From the NCBI RefSeq assembly GCF_016584665.1, contig NZ_BBJB01000044.1, positions 1 through 64,000 on the forward strand: a stretch of 64,000 nt of DNA, given 5' to 3'. Source of the stretch: Pseudanabaena sp. lw0831. GTDB taxonomy: Bacteria > Cyanobacteriota > Cyanobacteriia > Pseudanabaenales > Pseudanabaenaceae. A model generated the notes under the pieces. That model saw only the letters and a program-made list of their open reading frames with translations, searched no databases and had not been told where the DNA came from. Made by a program: the position numbers and the translations under genes. This document shows, in pieces, positions 37,258-39,249 of the stretch; the first letter of the stretch is position 1; each line of letters begins with the position of its first letter.

Positions 37258-38124
37258 TCAAATTCCTAATTGTTCTTTTAAATAATCATGAATTATGACT
37301 TGATACTCGCTAATAACATGATTGATGAGATTTATATGAGACTGATTGTATCGATCAAATGAATAGAAGTCTTGTTGAGATTCACCTAAACTATCTTTTA
37401 GAAAATTTTTAACATTCTGTCTTTCTCCAACGGTTCCATGTGCAGCAAAATTTCTAGTAAATCTAAATCTTTCCTCAATCCCTTGCTGTTTAAATAAATT
37501 TTCTAAATATTGACTTGAATTTTTATTAATATATTCATAGAGAGAATAAAGGGTAATAAGGTGAAGAACTGGATCGCTGCTTAGATTCTCAAGACTCACA
37601 AATCGAGCAATATACTCATTAATTTTGTCATTGTTTTCGCAATTTATCACTGTTAGAACCGTAACAATTTTTTGTAAAGATCCATAATAGAGTTGGTTGT
37701 TAAGCGCTCTCCCGCTAGTTACCAGCATCATTGTTTCTGGTAACCATGCTTTAAGGTTAGTTTCATAATCTAATATATCAATAGAAATTTGCTGCCCATC
37801 ACTTTTTTTTGCGATGTATCTAGGCTGATTTCTTATGGAGAGAAAAGCAATCTGTAAGCATTTTAGAGATTCTTCAATTACTTTCAGTGCTTTTTTTTCA
37901 AATTTAGCAGAATCGATTTCTTCTTGATCAGATTTATAAATAACTGCATCAATTTCTCCATTAGCATCATTTTTGGCTAATAGTTTATATTCATTATTCT
38001 CAAAAAGTTTTGTAAGCCCTTCTTCATCGATTACTGCATCTTTTATGCGAAGTCTACGTAAAATTGAGTTAGGAGATAAGGGATAAGTGGCAATACAGCA
38101 ATATTTCTTTTTAGAGGTTAGCAT
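37258..38124 (-). CDS. HEPN-like hypothetical protein
   Basis: I do not recognise a named family for this 288-residue protein. It is largely helical and has no membrane segment. Near residue 230 it reads RFTRNFAAHGT, which contains Arg-Asn-x3-His, the R-x4-6-H motif of HEPN RNases with the polar residue after Arg that active members show. The N-terminus (KKKYCCIATYPLSPNSILRRL) is basic. The gene is A/T richer than its neighbours and is flanked by infB and a STAS-like/PIN pair. A role in defence or RNA cleavage is plausible but inferred from one motif. Confidence 0.6.
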   Translation of the reverse strand: MLTSKKKYCCIATYPLSPNSILRRLRIKDAVIDEEGLTKLFENNEYKLLAKNDANGEIDAVIYKSDQEEIDSAKFEKKALKVIEESLKCLQIAFLSIRNQPRYIAKKSDGQQISIDILDYETNLKAWLPETMMLVTSGRALNNQLYYGSLQKIVTVLTVINCENNDKINEYIARFVSLENLSSDPVLHLITLYSLYEYINKNSSQYLENLFKQQGIEERFRFTRNFAAHGTVGERQNVKNFLKDSLGESQQDFYSFDRYNQSHINLINHVISEYQVIIHDYLKEQLGI

Positions 38125-38282
38125 TTTAAAATAAATCGTTGTTTTGAGGTGTTGGTATTGTTGATATTTTAGACACGATCATACTGAAATAAACAAAAAA
38201 TGTTATCCGCTAATATTTTGCAATGATCATTCTATAAAGCTAATATCATACATAGATTCATATATTGAGATGAGCGATCGCA

Positions 38283-38636
38283 ATGGCTACTTATATCAAA
38301 GTTTACGATCTGTGTGGCGCAAACTGCATTGCAGCTAAACACGCTACACAGCTATATGAACAAATCTACCCCATACTCAAGTCAGGCAAAGAAGTTGAGC
38401 TAGACTTTGCTGGCACATATCGATTTTTGAGCATCTTCTTTAACATCGCGATCGGGCAGTTATTCCGTGACATTCCTGCTGAGGCGATCGCGAGATCTTT
38501 AAAGTTCACGAACTTAGACGAGCTTGGTCAACGTGTGAATGCCCAAGTCATAGAAAGTGCCAAGCTTTATTATGCCGATGAAAACTACCGCAAAGCAGTA
38601 GATAGTGTGATGTCAGAGCAATTCTCCTATGCCTAG
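38283..38636 (+). CDS. STAS-like (DUF4325-type) small protein
   Basis: The 117-residue protein fits the STAS-like DUF4325 pattern: a strand-helix start (IKVYDLCGANCIAAKHATQLY), then KSGKEVELDFAGTYRFLSIFFNIAIGQLF, where the VELDFAG strand precedes the helix that in STAS domains carries the regulatory Ser. A C-terminal helical region follows. Known STAS domains act as protein-protein switches. The gene overlaps the downstream PIN gene by 8 bases and so is translationally coupled to it. I infer that it is the antidote or control subunit of that nuclease. Confidence 0.72.
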   Translation: MATYIKVYDLCGANCIAAKHATQLYEQIYPILKSGKEVELDFAGTYRFLSIFFNIAIGQLFRDIPAEAIARSLKFTNLDELGQRVNAQVIESAKLYYADENYRKAVDSVMSEQFSYA

Positions 38637-39249
38637 TGGGTCGTATCGAATTCAAGCCGATGTTATAGATATCACATTAGATGTTCCTCAAAAAGAGGAC
38701 ATCTTTTTTGTTGATACCAATATTTGGTATTGGCTAGCCTACTCAAATGCAAGTCACACAGCACAGCCATATCAACTCAATGACTATCCAGACTACATTT
38801 CTGGTGCTTTAACGAATGCTGCAACATTATGCTACTCAGAATTATTGCTTCCTGAATTAGCACATATCATTGAAACTACCGAACGAAACATTTTCAACGT
38901 TGGTCGTACACCTAAGCTAAAAGGAAAAGATTTTCGTCGGTTACATCCAAGAATCCGCATCAATATTGCAAATGAAGTAAAAGTTGTATGGGAGCAGATC
39001 AAAGGAGATGCTCAGCCTCTAGCACTATCACTTTATGAAGCAATCGCCGATCGTGCAATCAATCGCTTTGCCAGCCAGATGGTAGATGGCTATGATCTCT
39101 TTATCCTTGAAATTATGGAAAACGAAGGCATTACTAAGGTGATTACAGATGATAGTGATTATGTGACAGTCCCTAATATTCAAGTGTTTACAGCTAACTC
39201 AACAGTCTTAGGCGAAGCACGATCTCAAAATAAATTAGTCACTAGATAG
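38629..39249 (+). CDS. PIN-domain protein paired with STAS-like protein
   Basis: The 206-residue product has PIN-fold marks: EDIFFVDTNIWYWLAYSNA with the first Asp, a central CYSELLLPELAHIIE with Glu, VDGYDLFILEIMENEG with acidic residues, and ITKVITDDSDYVTVPNI at the end. It is longer than a typical VapC, with an insertion of about 60 residues (ETTERNIFNVGRTPKLKGKD...). Its ATG lies inside the end of the STAS-like gene. The pair looks like a two-gene toxin-antitoxin or defence module of a non-standard type. RNase activity is inferred from the fold. Confidence 0.78.
   Translation: MPSGSYRIQADVIDITLDVPQKEDIFFVDTNIWYWLAYSNASHTAQPYQLNDYPDYISGALTNAATLCYSELLLPELAHIIETTERNIFNVGRTPKLKGKDFRRLHPRIRINIANEVKVVWEQIKGDAQPLALSLYEAIADRAINRFASQMVDGYDLFILEIMENEGITKVITDDSDYVTVPNIQVFTANSTVLGEARSQNKLVTR

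Follow-up and report, generated by a model that had tools for sequence, protein, structure and literature searches.

The STAS–PIN gene pair of Pseudanabaena sp. lw0831 is a predicted kinase-less variant of the VapKSC toxin–antitoxin system

Two overlapping genes of the cyanobacterium Pseudanabaena sp. lw0831, one for a STAS-like protein and one for a PIN-domain protein, raise the question of which system they constitute and how the putative nuclease would be held and released. The window considered here is the whole 64,000-nt stretch at positions 1 to 64,000 of contig NZ_BBJB01000044.1. The first-pass annotation had read the pair, together with a divergent HEPN-motif gene, as a non-standard toxin–antitoxin or defence island matching no described module; this interpretation is partly supported by our results.

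The upstream gene, vapS (38283–38636, plus strand), encodes a predicted STAS-like antitoxin of 117 aa, and the downstream gene, vapC (38629–39249, plus strand), a predicted PIN-domain RNase toxin of 206 aa, both assigned using Pfam, phmmer, and AlphaFold2 models. DUF4325 covers VapS residues 21–81 (E 1.1e-14, 54 bits at a cut-off of 23), and PIN (PF01850) covers VapC residues 27–180 (E 1.3e-5, above its cut-off). As the annotation had stated, and as the open reading frames and Pfam confirm, vapC starts inside vapS with an overlap of 8 bases (38629–38636). The Pfam scan of VapS yields no domain besides DUF4325/STAS and no DNA-binding VapB-type antitoxin; together with the homology to PDB entry 9Z7O described below, this agrees with the proposal of a non-standard pair in which a STAS switch is the probable partner of the PIN protein. 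The VapS model (pLDDT 91.9) gives weak fold matches that include the STAS proteins RsbV and RsbS, none at E < 0.2, and the VapC model (pLDDT 81.3) matches PIN proteins and VapC toxins; 9Z7O is absent among the 50 fold matches listed for each of the two models. No site reached the scan threshold in a promoter scan just upstream of vapS.

Profiles of the VapS and VapC families matched one solved complex, 9Z7O (E 7.6e-34 and 9.3e-67, respectively), and the window proteins individually match its chain A, Escherichia VapS (phmmer, E 2.9e-17), and chain C, Escherichia VapC (E 2.9e-41, residues 8–204). This complex belongs to VapKSC, an anti-phage toxin–antitoxin system (Chambers et al., EMBO J, June 2026, PMC13373217). 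Escherichia VapC is toxic and is neutralized by VapS, and neutralization is abolished by deletion of the VapS C-terminus or by the Ser48Glu substitution; the vapKSC operon protects against phage Bas42 by about 2 log, and this protection requires D28 of VapC, S48 of VapS, and F54 of VapK (PMC13373217). The kinase VapK has been proposed to sense ssDNA and phosphorylate VapS, freeing the VapC RNase, the activation by ssDNA being deduced from the related CapK and from structure prediction (PMC13373217). Thus, judging by homology, the window pair is a kinase-less variant of a known system with a predicted function, and not the undescribed module that it had been taken for.

The residues known to matter in the Escherichia proteins are retained. 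Alignment of VapS with 9Z7O chain A and 107 other VapS proteins places Ser50 (codon AGC, 38430–38432, plus strand) at the position of the phosphoacceptor Ser48. The alignment with 9Z7O chain A also delimits a C-terminal helix (38568–38633, plus strand), modeled by AlphaFold2 at residues 100–116 with its tip at low confidence; it is the equivalent of Escherichia residues 94–116, the region required for VapC blocking (PMC13373217). In VapC, all five predicted active-site acids (38713–39159, plus strand) are kept: Asp29 (38713–38715), Glu76 (38854–38856), Asp153 (39085–39087), Asp175 (39151–39153), and Asp177 (39157–39159), each invariant or nearly so among 25 compared VapC proteins. Asp29 corresponds to Asp28, mutation of which abolishes the toxicity of Escherichia VapC (PMC13373217). 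The extra segment of some 60 residues noted earlier in the PIN protein is real, but it is no peculiarity of this protein, since Escherichia VapC has 203 aa and a long PIN protein is hence standard for VapC of the VapSC type.

The likeness to VapKSC extends to gene order, with vapS directly 5′ of vapC as VapKSC requires, and to relatives, including Pseudanabaena biceps, that carry the same operon with VapK; unlike VapKSC, the window pair lacks vapK, both beside it and genome-wide. The logic of a GHKL kinase with a STAS partner is shared with the CapK–CapS regulators (PMC13373217), but CapS is a DNA-binding repressor, whereas the window VapS has no additional DNA-binding domain and is paired with a PIN toxin. 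As in classical VapBC, a PIN RNase would be restrained by the product of an overlapping upstream gene; unlike in VapBC, the antitoxin is a STAS protein rather than a DNA-binding VapB, the PIN protein is about 60–70 residues longer, and the metal stays in place when Escherichia VapS binds. In the SpoIIAA/SpoIIAB and RsbV/RsbW anti-sigma circuits, as in VapKSC, a GHKL kinase controls a STAS protein by serine phosphorylation, but the client of VapS is a nuclease and not a sigma factor, and in the window the kinase is missing.

The absence of the kinase was established at two levels. A tblastn search with ten VapK proteins yields neither vapK nor its remnant in the window, including the 158-base intergenic region (38125–38282) into which the end of vapK would fall in a vapKSC operon; and no VapK-like protein (STAS plus GHKL) is found in the source genome, which is 99.97% complete, the best match (E 0.015) being to ordinary kinase domains. 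In the loci of the nearest named relatives, P. biceps PCC 7429 (L006 in our numbering of loci) and a Pseudanabaenaceae MAG (L007), as well as in a congener (L004), the pair is preceded by a third gene encoding a STAS-like and HATPase protein of 256–323 aa.

A survey of the DUF4325–PIN adjacency shows that it is not due to chance: it is found again and again across the genera of cyanobacteria, many of which carry it, as well as in phages and on a plasmid of Deinococcus. A PIN protein of the VapC type was identified by profile search in 23 of 386 cyanobacterial genomes; DUF4325 precedes it wherever the contig permits, and in most of these loci a HATPase gene is likewise located ahead of it. The complete trio is observed on a plasmid of Deinococcus gobiensis (annotated as ATP-binding, STAS-like, and PIN proteins), in Streptococcus phage Javan172, where its neighbor is the integrase, and in several IMG/VR contigs. 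When the window PIN protein served as the query, searches of plasmids and phages gave no match, the relatives there being found only via diverged VapK queries. In Javan172 the integrase-adjoining vapKSC is completed by an unannotated PIN gene (L088:6284–6814). Marinitoga phage MPV1 and a Clostridioides phage have a VapK/STAS pair with no recognizable VapC (L089:4869–6261 and L087:4944–6157, respectively), and the switch may serve other effectors in these phages.

In P. biceps (L006:891–11548) and in L007, the full vapKSC lies inside a DUF499/DUF3780/DUF1156 island of the kind found in Type-2 BREX-related systems (PMC12839542), a publication whose text has no mention of STAS or HATPase modules. 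The L006 island also holds an IrrE/M78 peptidase and a 204-aa gene; DUF1156 is a methyltransferase. Unlike in these systems, none of the three DUF genes is present near the window locus.

To assess how common kinase-less pairs are, we used 108 loci in which VapC is nearly full length (at least 175 aa) and VapS adjoins it. An intact vapK is present in 52 of them, 36 have no recognizable adjacent vapK, in 17 it is broken or cut by the contig end, and three are contig-edge loci, these shares applying to a sample from genome searches centered on cyanobacteria. More than 2 kb of upstream DNA is available for 26 of the 36 vapK-less loci, and only about 1.1 kb for some, so that vapK could be displaced in the latter. 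Mapping onto the VapC tree, supported branches force at least 11 label changes for the vapK-less state. The published survey took vapK as its starting point (PMC13373217), and kinase-less pairs were therefore invisible to it.

The phosphoacceptor position was compared with the state of the kinase. It is Ser or Thr in all 52 loci with vapK and all 17 with broken or contig-cut vapK, while Pro, Ala, or Trp is found in seven of the 36 vapK-less loci; one further loss (Pro) occurs in a contig-edge locus near-identical to one of these seven. On the VapC tree the losses correspond to about six separate inferred events, all in vapK-less lineages, as expected where release no longer uses phosphorylation. 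With few informative pairs available, the independent-pairs test of kinase loss versus phosphosite loss lacked the power to reach significance, and a branch-length argument, rough only, gives p of about 0.0004–0.009. For close vapK-less pairs dN/dS is about 0.05–0.43 in VapC and 0.04–0.51 in VapS, overlapping the values for kinase-bearing pairs (0.11–0.44 and 0.08–0.24, respectively), and hence such pairs appear to be maintained rather than decaying; these figures come from vapK-less pairs other than the window copy, whose closest sampled relative is only 53% identical.

We consider it slightly more probable than not that the window pair is a VapKSC-type antitoxin and toxin that has lost its kinase and now acts as a two-gene toxin–antitoxin unit, VapC being freed when VapS is short. 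VapS would bind VapC via the STAS domain and cover the active site with its C-terminal helix, so that VapC stays off. This hold has been shown for the Escherichia homologues (PMC13373217), and we infer it for the window pair from homology and the conserved residues. Where the system is complete, ssDNA arising during phage attack would activate VapK, which would phosphorylate the VapS serine and so free VapC; as the window genome has no VapK, its pair would behave as a two-gene unit, with VapC freed once VapS runs short, by turnover or by shut-off of expression. The matches to 9Z7O and to the family profiles, the retained PIN acids, serine, and helix, the absence of vapK, the commonness and repeated origin of vapK-less pairs, their dN/dS values, and the confinement of phosphosite losses to vapK-less lineages all point to this reading. 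Against it, Ser50 is kept, although a phosphorylation-independent pair could do without it, and an inert pair permanently silenced by VapS would look identical over short times. Release in the window copy might thus proceed through loss of VapS or through a kinase acting in trans, or might not occur at all.

Alternatively, the pair may be a decaying remnant: a complete vapKSC would have arrived between infB and lipB, vapK would have been deleted, and the vapS–vapC left behind, silent because VapS keeps VapC off, would be drifting away. Decay is indeed frequent among the sampled loci, with VapK broken beside intact VapSC in L041, L051, L055, and others, and VapC itself broken in L046, L058, L060, and L062; moreover, the pair has a patchy distribution, being present in 3 of 26 genomes of the genus. 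However, neither window gene is disrupted, all functional residues known are retained, no vapK trace remains, so the loss is not fresh, and vapK-less pairs elsewhere are under purifying selection. We regard a decaying remnant as unlikely.

The retained Ser50 could also mean that the phosphorylation switch persists, with a different GHKL (RsbW-like) host kinase phosphorylating it in trans. In favor of this, HATPase_c_2 matches 15 times in the genome, and several of these matches are in short frames that stand alone, a feature of anti-sigma kinases. Nonetheless, none of them is VapK-like, and partner-switch kinases are as a rule specific to their own STAS partner, which makes a kinase in trans rather improbable.

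The HEPN-motif gene (37258–38124, minus strand; 288 aa) does adjoin the pair divergently, as had been described, and it is a bystander. Its protein has no Pfam match, and the only sign of HEPN is an RNFAAH (Rx4H) motif that its single good homologue shares. No homologue was found near other loci of the module, and none in 243 other cyanobacterial genomes except one borderline hit. The window genes occupy the infB–lipB site; in a congener (G014) this site contains a homologue with 52% identity but no vapSC (L123:279–1154), and in G024 the site is empty, infB directly adjoining lipB (L133); since the two elements are found apart, the site seems to have taken them up separately. We therefore rejected the gene as a component of the system, and a hitherto undescribed island with one STAS switch common to HEPN and PIN RNases, suggested by the adjacency of the three genes in the window, is very improbable given these occurrences and the fact that STAS–PIN is already a described pair (PMC13373217). 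PADLOC/NCBIfam matches to Csx1, Csm2, and cas_TM1812, all weak (E 0.002–0.04), which could have indicated a CRISPR link, were treated as chance, possibly reflecting a shared fold.

The vapK-less pairs fall into several types. Plain pairs with the serine kept include the window copy, L050, L194, L200, L201, and others. A distinct STAS–PIN clade of 17 entries (16 vapK-less and one contig-edge) has TSAFL at the phosphosite and is often found beside cinA. In this clade, which includes L093 and L214–L227, the cinA neighbor (competence/damage-inducible protein) recurs in many genomes, and purifying selection is strong. Longer VapS proteins with no vapK have the serine replaced by Ala in L056 and L196, and by Pro in L047 and L175. 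A 229-aa gene lies 12 bases 5′ of the longer vapS in two loci (L056:6204–8101, L196:3756–5662) and is a possible replacement partner.

In four further loci with no vapK (L204:476–5671, L205:5023–8619, L212:5061–7532, and L213:313–5588), a TPR–CHAT (caspase-like) gene is located directly upstream of vapS–vapC. Their VapS proteins share a homologous N-terminal extension of about 130 aa, three of the four have Pro at the phosphosite, and three of the four retain intact His/Cys motifs in CHAT, which suggests release of VapC by proteolysis instead of a kinase. Tentatively, and with slightly less confidence than would make it an even bet, we propose that VapSC is a portable cassette with an interchangeable trigger: the ssDNA-sensing kinase has often been lost in cyanobacteria, some pairs, the window copy among them, running with no kinase and some having lost the phosphosite too, and in at least four loci CHAT would have replaced the kinase and would free VapC by cleaving VapS.

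Compared to the VapKSC report, the pairs with no kinase are new. If kinase-less pairs work, the STAS–PIN core would be the real unit, from which the sensor can be removed or exchanged (a kinase, perhaps a protease), and it would become understandable that cyanobacteria retain an RNase that is potentially lethal even where its trigger is gone.
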